Shown in pieces: positions 63 through 4,478 of a stretch of 44,435 bases of DNA (position 1 is its first letter; each line of letters begins with the position of its first letter). The DNA comes from an uncultured Pseudomonadota bacterium (GTDB lineage: Bacteria; Pseudomonadota; Alphaproteobacteria; UBA9219). A program made the position numbers and the translations under genes. Location: assembly GCA_903919315.1 (NCBI GenBank), contig CAIXHP010000004.1, positions 1 to 44,435 of the forward strand, given 5' to 3'. The notes under the pieces were generated by a model that was not told where the DNA came from, made no database searches, and saw only the letters and a program-made list of their open reading frames with translations.

Positions 63-497
63 TCAATCGCGGTGGTAGGGGTGGCCGGTGTTGATTTGTT
101 GGGCGCGGTAGAGTTGTTCCAGCAGCATCACACGCGCCAGTTTGTGCGGCCATGTTTTGTGGCCTAGGCCGAGCGTGAATTGGGCGCGGGCTTTCACTTC
201 GTCCGTCAAGCCGTCCGCGCCGCCGATGAGGAAGGCGAGGTCGTTGACGCCCTGATCCTGCCATGCTTGCAGTTTGGCGGCCAATTCGCGGCTCGATAAA
301 TCCTTGCCGTGTTCGTCGAGCGCGACGACGAAGGCTTTGGCGGGGAGGGCTTTCAGCAAGGCTTCGCCTTCGGCCTTTTGCGTCGCTGCCGAGAGTTCGC
401 GAATCGCGATGCTGCCGGTCAGGCGTTTGGCGTATTCGGCGCAAAGCTCGGCGTAGGCTCCGCGCAGACGGCCAAGGGCGAGGAGGTGGAGCTTCAT
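63..497 (-). CDS. rlmH: 23S rRNA (pseudouridine-1915 N3) methyltransferase RlmH
   Basis: RlmH is a small SPOUT-class enzyme that methylates pseudouridine 1915 in helix 69 of 23S rRNA, using S-adenosylmethionine on the assembled 70S ribosome. The 144-residue product is close to the usual length (about 155). It shows the SAM-binding glycine motif GGADG at residues 92-96 and the conserved C-terminal tail ending PYHRD, which holds the catalytic Tyr/His/Arg region. Its ATG overlaps the stop codon of the upstream dotA-like gene by four bases (ATGA), so it is translationally coupled to it. It is the last gene of the leftward set nadD-rsfS-dotA-like-rlmH. The rsfS-rlmH pairing is widespread; the gene between them is not. 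Assignment is firm. Confidence 0.96.
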   Translation of the reverse strand: MKLHLLALGRLRGAYAELCAEYAKRLTGSIAIRELSAATQKAEGEALLKALPAKAFVVALDEHGKDLSSRELAAKLQAWQDQGVNDLAFLIGGADGLTDEVKARAQFTLGLGHKTWPHKLARVMLLEQLYRAQQINTGHPYHRD

Positions 498-3271
498 TCG
501 GTTTTCGCGTCGTCGGGCGTGGCCGCCGATTGTTCGCGGGAGTCGTTGGGTTTGGTTTCCGTCTTTGGCGCGGGGGACGTTGGATTGTCTTTGCGCAGCG
601 CGGTCTCGCGGGCCTTGGTGTCCTTTTGGTGTTCAACCAGCATGGCGAGGTTCGCCGCCGTTCGCACGATGTCGGGATGCAGCGAACGGTCGGCAGGAAC
701 TTGTTGCGCGAGCGCCGAGGCATGAGCGGATGCCGTGGCGGTTGCGCCGGGGCCTGAAGCGGCGGCGCTGGCGGAACCGGCGCTGCCGCCGGGGCCGGTC
801 GCGTTGGTTTGCGCCACGGCTTGCGCGGCGGCTTGCGGGGCGATGACGACGGGTTCGGGCGGAGCTTCGTGCAAGGCGGGGAACAGCGCGCTTTTCAATT
901 TGTGCGGGTTCTGCGTGTCCGTTTCCGTGGATCCGGTGCGCGACGATCCCCGTCCGTCACCGCCTGTGGCGTAAGCGGACGATCCGATCATGCGGCCGCC
1001 GCCCGCCACGTTGAGCGCGGTCGTCGCGGCCGCGCCGTTGGGACGGGTTTGCGGCGCGGCTGTGTGCGACGGCGTCGCGCTTTGCAGGCTGAGCCAGTGG
1101 AGGGTGCGGTCGGGCAGGAGGTTGATGCCCTTGAACGCCGCGTTGGTCGCGGCATAGGCCAGCACCGCGTAGAGCAGCGCCAGCGCCGTGCGCACGCCCA
1201 GCACCGTGCCGCCGTGCGCGGCGGTCAGCGGTGCCGTCAGGTGGAGGAACATCACGTTCAGGAAACTGATCGCCAGCATAAACAGCGCTAGCCCGATCAC
1301 AAAGCCGAACAGGGTCAGGATGGGGCGCATGAACAGGCGTAGCCACAGCCAATAGGCTTGCCGCGCCACCGGGCCGCTCAGGCCCTCGCCGGTGGGGTTC
1401 AGGTGCGCCAGCGCCACCAAAGGCAGCGCCACCACCGCTTCGAACGCTTCGAGCAGCCAGGCGACAACGGCCAGAAACAGCCGAAAGAACGGCAGCAACG
1501 GCAACAGGAACAGCAGCGCGAGGCCGCAGACGCTGAAGCCAAGGCCTATGACGGCGAACAACGCCGCGCTCGTCATCGTGCCGGGTTCGGCGAGGCCGGG
1601 GCCGGTCATGCCGAACAGCCATGTGCCGAGCGCCAGATAGCGTCGTCCGATTTCGGCCAGCGCGGCGATGGGGTTGCTGATCATGGCTCCGGCAAAATCA
1701 CGCGCGAAGGAATCCGACGGGCTTGCGGCTTCGAGGTCGCGCGGCGCTTCGGCCCAGACACCAAAGGCGAGGCTGGCGGCGTTGAGCTGGCGGGCGAAGA
1801 GGAAAAAGCCGGTTTCGGAGTCGCTGGTGTCGCCGAGAGCATCGCGCAGGTCGAACTGGTCGGTCATCATCAGCGTGGCATCCGCCATCTGCTGGCCATA
1901 GAGCCAGCCGCGCACTTGCTTCATGCCGTTCGTCATCTGGTCGTAGATGATGTGGATGCGCTCGCGCTGCAAATCGGGCGCGGTGCGGAGCGTCGGGTTG
2001 TTGTCGATGGCCTCGGTCAGCGCGGCGCGGGACATGACTTTATGCCCGAACAGCGGCGCTTGCACCGAGGGCAGCGCCTGCGCGGTGAGGTCGCCGTACA
2101 GGGCTTGCTGGCGCGTCAGATCGGTCAGGAAGCTTCCGGCGGCGATCCAGCCCGCGCGGGCGGATTCGTCCAAGGTCTGGTTCACGGTTCCGACGCTGTT
2201 TGCCATCATGGCGCGGCGCTTCGCGTCGAGCGCCGCCTGTTGTTCCTTGACGATGGCGGCCAGACGGCTGCGGGCATCGAGCGGGATGGGCTGAGGGTTG
2301 GCGAGCGTCGCCGCGTAGGTGAAGGCGGGACTGAGCGGGTCGGCGATGGCGCGCGCCTGCACGATCAAACGCTCGGCATCGGCGCGGGCAAAGTCGGCCC
2401 AGTCGGCGGCGAGGCGTTCGAACGCGCCGTTGCCGGATGTGTCCGCCGCGCCGCCGTCGCGCGACAGGAAGCGGTATTCGCCGCACAGGGCCGCATCGGC
2501 GTGCAGCGCGTTCGTGGTGCGCCAGATTTCGGGGGTCAGGCGCTGCGGCGGAATCCGGCGGTTGTCGGTCATGTCGCCGATCAGGCGCACTTGCGAATCC
2601 GCAGGCACGGCGCTGAACATCTGGTGGTACATGTTGCGGCACAATTCGATCTCGGTCGCCACGGCGACGAGGCGCGCCACGTCCGGCGCGCGCGGCGCGA
2701 CGGGGCCGGACAGGCTGTCCTTCATCGTTTCAACGATGCCGCGCCACGCGTTGCTGGCGAGGCTCGATCCCGATTCGGCCAGTTTGACGATCAGGTATTG
2801 TCCCGAATTCAGCCCGCCGCCGATCGGCACCAAAAGCCCGATGGCCACCACGAGGCGGATGGGCGCCCATAATTGATTGGTGCGCCGCCCCATGGCCGTG
2901 CCGTCGTGCGCCGTTTCCGCCACCATTGCCGTGACGTGATAGAGGACAAGGATTCCGGCAATCACCAGCATGCCGAGGCTGTAAACGCTGAGCGCCTGAC
3001 GCAGGGCGGTGGTGAGGGGGGCGAGGCGGACGAGGCTGTTTGCGCCATCTTCCGCCGCTACGCCGCCACGGAAGAGAATCTCCAGCCAGCCTATCGCCCA
3101 ATCCGATTCCGGCGGATGGTCGAACAGGCCGTTTGCCGCGTAAGCCGTTCCGGCGAAGGCGAACGCCGCGAGCAGGGCAATGCTGCCGACAAGTGCCGCC
3201 GTGCCACCCACAGACGCGAAACGATAGAGTGTCCGCCTGCGCGGACTCGACGATCCTGTGGGCTGGGGCAA
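494..3271 (-). CDS. DotA/TraY-family integral membrane protein
   Basis: A 925-residue polytopic membrane protein. A signal-like hydrophobic segment at about 20-46 ends in AYA-A. It is followed by the DotA/TraY N-terminal pattern: a hydrophobic segment near 94-112, ETAHDG (119-124), MGRR, LWAPIR (134-139), a Gly/Leu-rich membrane segment and a GQYL stretch. Several long hydrophobic segments recur around residues 540-720. The last ~190 residues are Ala/Thr/Pro/Ser-rich and look disordered. DotA and TraY are inner-membrane parts of type IVB (Dot/Icm, IncI) secretion systems. None of the other Dot/Icm parts lies in this window. It begins 4 bases after rsfS and overlaps rlmH by 4 bases, so it is co-transcribed with ribosome-maturation genes. 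Family membership is well supported by the motif block; function here is unknown. Confidence 0.8.
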   Translation of the reverse strand: MPQPTGSSSPRRRTLYRFASVGGTAALVGSIALLAAFAFAGTAYAANGLFDHPPESDWAIGWLEILFRGGVAAEDGANSLVRLAPLTTALRQALSVYSLGMLVIAGILVLYHVTAMVAETAHDGTAMGRRTNQLWAPIRLVVAIGLLVPIGGGLNSGQYLIVKLAESGSSLASNAWRGIVETMKDSLSGPVAPRAPDVARLVAVATEIELCRNMYHQMFSAVPADSQVRLIGDMTDNRRIPPQRLTPEIWRTTNALHADAALCGEYRFLSRDGGAADTSGNGAFERLAADWADFARADAERLIVQARAIADPLSPAFTYAATLANPQPIPLDARSRLAAIVKEQQAALDAKRRAMMANSVGTVNQTLDESARAGWIAAGSFLTDLTRQQALYGDLTAQALPSVQAPLFGHKVMSRAALTEAIDNNPTLRTAPDLQRERIHIIYDQMTNGMKQVRGWLYGQQMADATLMMTDQFDLRDALGDTSDSETGFFLFARQLNAASLAFGVWAEAPRDLEAASPSDSFARDFAGAMISNPIAALAEIGRRYLALGTWLFGMTGPGLAEPGTMTSAALFAVIGLGFSVCGLALLFLLPLLPFFRLFLAVVAWLLEAFEAVVALPLVALAHLNPTGEGLSGPVARQAYWLWLRLFMRPILTLFGFVIGLALFMLAISFLNVMFLHLTAPLTAAHGGTVLGVRTALALLYAVLAYAATNAAFKGINLLPDRTLHWLSLQSATPSHTAAPQTRPNGAAATTALNVAGGGRMIGSSAYATGGDGRGSSRTGSTETDTQNPHKLKSALFPALHEAPPEPVVIAPQAAAQAVAQTNATGPGGSAGSASAAASGPGATATASAHASALAQQVPADRSLHPDIVRTAANLAMLVEHQKDTKARETALRKDNPTSPAPKTETKPNDSREQSAATPDDAKTE

Positions 3272-3275
3272 GGGG

Positions 3276-3839
3276 TCAGGCTCCGCGAGGGTTGTGGCTC
3301 CAGATGTCTTCGATGTTATAGTAACGGCGGACTTCGGGACGGAACAGATGCACGATCACGTCGCCCGCGTCGATCAGAACCCAATCGCCTTGCGGCAGGC
3401 CTTCGATGATGACGCGCTTGACGCCCAGCTTTTCGAACGCGAGGCGCAGATAGTCGGCGATGGCGGCCAACTGGCGGCCCGATTTGCCCGTGGCGACCAG
3501 AACGTAATCGGCGATGGCGCTCTTGCCGCGCAGATCGACGGCTACGATCGCTTCGGCTTGACGTTCGTCGAGAACCTCCAGCGCGGCATCGCGCAGGAAT
3601 TCAGGAACGCCGCGCGGCGCGGTTGCTTTGGGCTTTGCCGCCGGTTTCTTGGCGGCGGTTTTGGGCGCGGGTTTCTTTTTGGCGGCCGGTTTTGCGGCGA
3701 CGGTTTTCTTCGCGACGGGCTTCTTTGCCGCCGGTTTCTTTGTCGCAATTTTCTTTGTCGCGGTTTTTTTGAGCGGCGCTTTTTTCAGGGCCGGTTTCGC
3801 GGCGGGTTTTTTCTTGGGAGCTGGTTTCTTGGTCGCCAC
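3276..3839 (-). CDS. rsfS: Ribosomal silencing factor RsfS with a histone-H1-like N-terminal tail
   Basis: RsfS binds ribosomal protein L14 (uL14) and keeps the two subunits apart when nutrients are scarce. The C-terminal ~110 residues (about 77-187) are the complete RsfS domain: AIVAVDLRGKS, then DYVLVATGKSGRQ, and the C-terminal GDVIVHLF / RRYYNIEDIW segment. The first ~75 residues are a low-complexity Lys/Ala/Pro tail built of AAKK, KPA and TKK repeats, like the C-terminal domain of histone H1 or AlgP. The whole protein is 187 residues against 105-130 for typical RsfS. The ATG used here starts the tail and there is no other good start before the domain, so the tail appears to be translated. 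It sits 3 bases after nadD and 4 before the dotA-like gene. Confidence 0.93.
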   Translation of the reverse strand: MATKKPAPKKKPAAKPALKKAPLKKTATKKIATKKPAAKKPVAKKTVAAKPAAKKKPAPKTAAKKPAAKPKATAPRGVPEFLRDAALEVLDERQAEAIVAVDLRGKSAIADYVLVATGKSGRQLAAIADYLRLAFEKLGVKRVIIEGLPQGDWVLIDAGDVIVHLFRPEVRRYYNIEDIWSHNPRGA

Positions 3840-3842
3840 GTT

Positions 3843-4478
3843 TTACGTTCCTTTACGGTGAGGGGTCTGCACGGTCTTGTTCTGCCGGAGCTGTGTCGCC
3901 GACAGGCGGTTCAGCGCGTTGTCGAGCATCAGCCACGCGGGCGGAGTCGTCGTCGCCAAGGACGCAGCGGCGCGAAGATCACGCCACGCCGCATCGAAAC
4001 GGATCGCGGCTTTGCCCCGGCAACGTCCCGCACCATAGCCCGGACGGCGGAAAACGGCAATCGGCACGGCGGCGAAAATGTTGTCCCAGCGCCGCCAGCG
4101 GTGAAAATCGCGCAGATTGTCGGCTCCCATTAACCAGACAAAGCGCGCGCCGGGGAAGCGTTGCCGCAGTTCGCGCAGCGTATCGGCGCTGTAGCGGGTG
4201 CCGAGCCGGGCCTCCAGATCGGTCGCCCAAAGGCGCGGGTGGGGGCGGGTGAGGGCGCGGGCGCGTCGCAGCCTTTCCTCGAACGGAGCCATGCCTTTGG
4301 ACGGTTTCAGCAGGTTTTGCGGGCTGACCAGCCACCAGATGCCATCCAGCCGCAACCGCTTGATGGCATGCAGGCTCATCGCCACATGCCCCTCATGGGC
4401 CGGATTGAACGACCCGCCCAAAAGGCCGATGCGCCGCCCCGCGAATGTAGGCCCGGAATGGAGGTTGGGGGGGATCAA
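3843..4478 (-). CDS. nadD: Nicotinate-nucleotide adenylyltransferase NadD
   Basis: NadD transfers AMP from ATP to nicotinate mononucleotide, the penultimate step of NAD synthesis. The 211-residue protein has the nucleotidyltransferase signature GGSFNPAHEGH at about 20-30 and the C-terminal LSATQLR form of the family's (S/T)STxIR motif. WLMGADN in mid-protein is the usual NadD active-site segment. It is the first gene of the leftward operon, three bases ahead of rsfS, an order common in bacteria. The ~210 bases upstream carry a REP-like palindrome and no other gene. Confidence 0.95.
   Translation of the reverse strand: MIPPNLHSGPTFAGRRIGLLGGSFNPAHEGHVAMSLHAIKRLRLDGIWWLVSPQNLLKPSKGMAPFEERLRRARALTRPHPRLWATDLEARLGTRYSADTLRELRQRFPGARFVWLMGADNLRDFHRWRRWDNIFAAVPIAVFRRPGYGAGRCRGKAAIRFDAAWRDLRAAASLATTTPPAWLMLDNALNRLSATQLRQNKTVQTPHRKGT

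Follow-up and report, generated by a model that had tools for sequence, protein, structure and literature searches.

A second DotA/TraY-family gene in a nadD-rsfS-rlmH operon, and a chromosomal type IVB secretion system elsewhere in the same Micavibrio-related genome

Our analysis suggests that dotA1, a DotA/TraY-family gene lodged between rsfS and rlmH in an uncultured alphaproteobacterium, encodes an additional, mobile channel subunit belonging to a chromosomal type IVB secretion system (T4BSS) in Micavibrio-related bacteria, a reading to which we give a probability of roughly 0.7. We favor it because DotA1 always co-occurs with a main-clade DotA and a T4BSS locus, keeps the core of the family, and changes its genomic site from one relative to another. 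The novelty lies in this duplicated, wandering DotA and in a T4BSS found across the order that seems not to have been described before, rather than in any tie between dotA1 and ribosome maturation.

A chromosomal T4BSS with a type IVB pilus throughout the order would matter because these are relatives of Micavibrio, for whose type species the 2011 genome paper on M. aeruginosavorus ARL-13 reported nothing that pointed to a type IV secretion system (PMC3189940); the literature that we searched had nothing on an order-wide T4BSS in its relatives. We infer the Micavibrio-related name of the order, since an eLife phylogeny that places Micavibrio within Alphaproteobacteria (PMC6447387) and the NCBI taxonomy dump, which lists the genus under Bdellovibrionota, disagree. 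A channel subunit that is duplicated, uncoupled from its machine, and positioned differently in different species would also provide a natural test of whether DotA proteins are interchangeable or set substrate or target specificity. It would likewise allow one to examine how a secretion machine obtains an essential component whose gene is expressed away from the operon of the machine.

The dotA1 gene and its operon

The window, by which we mean the whole 44,435-nucleotide stretch of DNA analyzed, is the entire contig C4 of a 2.40-Mb genome assembly (G000; 70 contigs, 100% complete, 0.53% contamination). The initial annotation had given the coordinates of dotA1, its 4-base gap with rsfS, and its 4-base overlap with rlmH exactly, and had left the strand unstated; it is the minus strand, on which the genes run in the order nadD-rsfS-dotA1-rlmH.

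494..3271, minus strand: dotA1, DotA/TraY family, 925 aa, TTG start (TIGR04346 E=1.6e-63; fold match PDB 9ngy)
1091..3046, minus strand: conserved core of the DotA/TraY family in dotA1, aa 76-727 (extent of the TIGR04346 match)
497..1075, minus strand: C-terminal tail of dotA1, aa 733-925, predicted to be disordered (pLDDT <50)
3281..3284, minus strand: GGAG, likely Shine-Dalgarno sequence of dotA1, within the end of rsfS
494..497, minus strand: ATGA, in which the dotA1 stop overlaps the rlmH start
63..497, minus strand: rlmH, 23S rRNA pseudouridine-1915 methyltransferase (PF02590 4.8e-45)
3276..3839, minus strand: rsfS, with a Lys/Ala/Pro-rich N-terminal tail of ~75 aa (TIGR00090 1.4e-29 over aa 85-180)
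3843..4478, minus strand: nadD (NF000843 7.9e-78)

The family assignment made from the DNA was upheld by an HMM search, in which the dotA1 product scored 215.3 bits against the NCBIfam model TIGR04346 (DotA_TraY; cutoff 100). Its score against NF033886, the Legionella-type DotA equivalog of intracellular pathogens, was 157.9 bits, under the 500-bit cutoff. DotA1 is a member of the DotA/TraY family, not a Legionella-type equivalog. A Pfam search with the product returned no DotA/TraY model. When a profile built from 25 relatives was compared with all PDB sequences, the sole match was Legionella DotA (9ngy, E=1.8e-65), and the same structure, the DotA-IcmX protochannel, was the only significant Foldseek match (E=4.5e-13) to an AlphaFold2 model of DotA1 (mean pLDDT 71; residues 733-925 disordered). 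In VIA the model aligned with 9ngy over 591 residues (Z=22.1), followed by R388 VirB6/TrwI (Z=8.9); fold matches ranking under VirB6 were discarded as unrelated helical proteins (next unrelated fold, Z=6.8). The modeling shows DotA1, as a single chain, in the predicted fold of a DotA protochannel subunit. In addition to family and fold, DotA1 has in common with DotA of the Legionella Dot/Icm system a signature around TAHxG...WxPxR...LLxP.

Four nucleotides (3272-3275) separate the rsfS stop from the TTG of dotA1, with GGAG lying 9 nt before the TTG. Judged by this spacing, dotA1 is likely expressed together with nadD, rsfS, and rlmH. Scanning for sigma-70 promoters, a weak method for alphaproteobacteria, detected none within the operon on the minus strand. 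The codon adaptation index (CAI) of dotA1 is 0.739, compared with 0.655-0.735 for its operon neighbors and a reference median of 0.713; this native codon usage ruled out a recent horizontal arrival of the gene.

At loci of relatives where both flanking genes were measured, the distance between rsfS and rlmH was at most ~70 bp in the majority, and several pairs overlapped by exactly 4 nt, often as ATGA; a minority, mostly from another family of the order, had spacings of 270-762 bp. In no relative did dotA lie between the two genes at loci where they were found together, and the rsfS-dotA-rlmH order, which had been put forward for comparison across alphaproteobacteria, occurred in the source genome only. 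Because rsfS and rlmH in relatives usually touch or overlap without dotA, the comparison of gene order shows dotA1 as an apparent insertion at a normally closed junction, with the new junctions tight again. The locus comes from one assembly, in which the end of rlmH is 62 bp from the contig end.

The N-terminal tail of RsfS (window 3615-3839, minus strand) is histone H1-like, with an HC2 match of 8.6e-9 that falls below the model cutoff. Long N-terminal extensions are also present in the rsfS ORFs (187-306 aa) of several relatives.

The type IVB machine and a second DotA

The initial annotation described dotA1 as a lone DotA/TraY gene. This fits the window, in which that annotation noted no other Dot/Icm gene and tblastn with the source genome's own T4BSS proteins detected no core T4BSS gene. 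It is wrong at the genome level, because contig C57 encodes a T4BSS machine and contig C36 another DotA. Of the two explanations offered at that time, a scattered secretion system is the one that the genome bears out, with its machine on C57 and its DotA genes on C4 and C36.

G000:C57 14475-55436 (L087-L089), minus strand: T4BSS and type IVB pilus cluster, chromosomal contig
G000:C36 18067-21102, behind recA: dotA2, 1011 aa (TIGR04346 E=7e-89)

Using DotD, DotC, and DotB of the relative G013 as queries, we found their matches on C57 at 54, 72, and 77% identity, respectively. The contig also encodes DotI (PF11393 3e-31), DotH (PF12293 3e-70), DotG (NF033900 4e-50), TraQ (1.6e-13), DotN (3e-18), DotM (1e-51), the TrbC/DotL coupling protein (4e-111), a weak DotF, and lytic transglycosylase-like proteins. 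A 997-aa ATPase is a candidate DotO by its size and position (weak TraC-type match, E=4e-4). The genes dotB, dotC, dotD, dotG, dotH, and dotL, for which a genome scan had been suggested, were thus all on C57. The T4BSS genes are followed by a pilus part with PilN (TIGR02520 3e-85), PilO and PilQ recognized by their likeness to the G013 proteins, and prepilin-like ORFs judged by eye. By these matches, the source genome carries genes for a type IVB secretion system with DotB, DotC, DotD, DotG, DotH, DotI, DotL, DotM, and DotN. DotA is absent from the C57 cluster, and an IcmX/TraW partner was not recognized among the cluster's candidate secreted proteins, which gave no family or PDB match.

The make-up of the cluster, with TraI/DotC, TraJ/DotB, TraQ, TrbC/DotL, PilN, PilO, and PilQ, is R64-like. 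Unlike the IncI and IncM plasmids that carry TraY (R64 and pCTX-M3; MPF-I, thin pilus), however, C57 is chromosomal and has no PF03432 relaxase beside the cluster; the sole match in the genome to PF03432, the relaxase family covered, was on C11. Among plasmids, the best match to DotA1 was the alphaproteobacterial DotA/TraY of Martelella plasmids (25% identity), whose gene, unlike dotA1, shares a stretch with those for DotI, DotH, and DotG. The arrangement also differs from that of Legionella, in that the source genome has two DotA genes, neither of them in the core cluster and one of them inside nadD-rsfS-rlmH.

The codon usage of dotA2, whose neighbor recA was named from its sequence, is atypical compared with that of dotA1 and the T4BSS core (CAI 0.502, against a 5th percentile of 0.604; GC3 0.64). 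Near recA and dotA2 lies an AT-rich ORF of 407 aa (G000:C36 15039-16262, L004) with a partial match to the anti-phage protein ProA, far under the cutoff of that model (NF058533 4.6e-26).

DotA1 orthologs and the settings of DotA genes in the order

We searched all 33 genomes available for the order for orthologs. DotA1 falls within a divergent, long-stemmed clade (support 100/100) with members in eight of the 33 genomes, namely the window gene and one copy each in G006, G009, G012, G014, G015, G017, and G020. The orthologs are full length in all eight and have invariant residues in common. Each of the eight genomes also has a main-clade DotA; in G006 contig ends interrupt the main-clade DotA sequence, which was not long enough to enter the tree. 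DotB was found in seven, and the eighth, G015 (78% complete), has a T4BSS-linked tandem-gene array. DotA1 is 35-37% identical to its orthologs, whereas DotB of the source genome is 77-84% identical to DotB of relatives, a contrast in line with published work that ranks DotA near the bottom of the Dot/Icm proteins in conservation (PMC4256840).

The settings of the orthologs differ widely. In G012 the gene is part of a flagellar operon, flgC-fliE-dotA-fliQ (L041:9148-12850, G012:C33), a position that weighs against a conserved link between the gene and ribosome maturation. The orthologs of G009, G014, and G015 diverge from the tatC side, with the G015 copy running into miaA. The G020 ortholog follows a glycosyltransferase gene, the G006 ortholog overlaps a small gene of unknown function and faces a sigma factor on the other strand, and the G017 ortholog stands alone near argG. 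The proposal that one core part has come under housekeeping control therefore fits the source genome and does not extend to the other seven orthologs; because these lie in unrelated contexts, including the flagellar operon, coupling to ribosome maturation is not conserved. Between the dotA1 ortholog and miaA in G014:C7 (L035:8903-9569) there is an antitoxin/toxin-like pair, AbrB/PIN by eye.

Main-clade DotA genes are scattered as well. Among the DotA loci read with their flanks, few had core T4BSS genes nearby: L070 and L074, both with TraQ and DotN, and the locus of G013, which is about 8 kb from dotD. An apparent absence of DotA from the complete genome G005 was rejected as a contig break, the N-terminus of a DotA running off contig C22. 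Tandem DotA triplets occur at L065:2631-10928 and L078:5494-14129, and pairs among housekeeping genes at L048:9162-15052 (G003:C14), L049 (G024), and L050 (G028), where the neighbors, identified by sequence, are eno and ftsZ, or alaS and sucCD.

Possible roles of a displaced channel subunit

In the reading that we favor, DotA1 would be an old paralog that was re-sited independently in different relatives. In the source genome it would have landed between rsfS and rlmH, where it probably shares a transcript with both and is probably coupled to them in translation, and would thus borrow a constitutive promoter; use of this operon would be a local solution to the expression of dotA1. Since relatives do not share this association with ribosome genes, it is probably opportunistic. 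In Dot/Icm, DotA and IcmX together build a gated, pentameric channel (Yue et al., 2025, described in PMC12981334 and PMC12857230). Like Legionella DotA, DotA1 may build a homo- or mixed-oligomeric inner-membrane protochannel that passes substrates, presumably for the C57 machine and for secretion into other cells. The two DotA proteins may be kept for redundancy, for mixed channels, or for different targets.

A changed role for DotA1 is possible because its clade is divergent and stands on a long stem. DotA1 might accordingly have left secretion for another membrane job, such as a growth-linked channel of the envelope. This would account for the housekeeping setting of dotA1 and agrees with the housekeeping and flagellar contexts of this separate clade. 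The motifs point the same way, as far as mechanical start sites allow: the TAHxG-type motif, at 72-135 in the DotA1 clade, is nearer the N-terminus than in most main-clade DotAs, and KRSxxGxLFNP, present in 10 of 20 main-clade rows, is missing from every DotA1-clade member. We nevertheless regard a non-secretory function as unlikely. DotA1 never occurs without a T4BSS locus and a main-clade DotA in the same genome; at the thresholds used, neither DotA/TraY nor DotB was detected in any of 26 genomes of the class outside the order; and the core residues and protochannel fold are retained. Moreover, the contexts vary from genome to genome, so that DotA1 has no constant partner outside secretion.

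Still less probable, in our judgment, is regulatory coupling, in which selection favored the rsfS-rlmH placement as a way to match production of the T4BSS channel to ribosome maturation or growth. The tight gap, the ATGA overlap, and the plausible Shine-Dalgarno site agree with such coupling, and the attachment phase of Micavibrio brings a joint rise of housekeeping and protein-secretion genes (PMC3189940). However, rsfS and rlmH are near none of the other dotA1 orthologs, and one ortholog sits in an operon of the flagellar class, which in Micavibrio peaks in the opposite, attack phase (PMC3189940). A local misassembly that placed a dotA fragment in the operon, conceivable in a 70-contig draft with the junction near a contig end, is in our view very improbable, given an intact dotA1 with native codon usage, two junctions of gene-perfect spacing (a Shine-Dalgarno site at one, the ATGA overlap at the other), single-copy rsfS and rlmH, and the mobility of dotA1 in relatives.

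Building on the second-channel reading, we tentatively raise a broader idea by analogy with R64, in which TraY acts together with ExcA in entry exclusion (PMC6112013). This exclusion, together with tandem copies of the secreted proteins that we call V5, makes a recognition role for DotA worth considering. In this order DotA might be an exchangeable specificity module. One conserved T4BSS chassis would serve a number of divergent DotA channels, encoded as paralogs and in tandem pairs or triplets, that pair with the multiplied cysteine-rich secreted proteins of the cluster, which could give different target recognition or exclusion in the manner of TraY-ExcA. Each channel would then be expressed from whatever operon its gene had reached. 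We think this doubtful as it stands.

L088:11460-14683; L151-L156, L161, inside the T4BSS cluster: V5 tandem secreted proteins

The V5 proteins form a tandem family of two to four copies of ~450-550 aa, secreted and with several near-invariant cysteines, and such copies are frequent in genomes of the DotA1 clade. Their starts, such as VFDxxN, may recall those of VirB5/TrbJ; an assignment of V5 to VirB5 or IcmX found no support, with no match in Pfam, NCBIfam, or the PDB. We also dropped the idea that DotA and V5 copy numbers are equal, the DotA/V5 counts being 2/2 in G000, 3/3 in G001, 2/4 in G009, and 2/3 in G012. DotA and V5 are both multiplied in the same subclade, not one to one.
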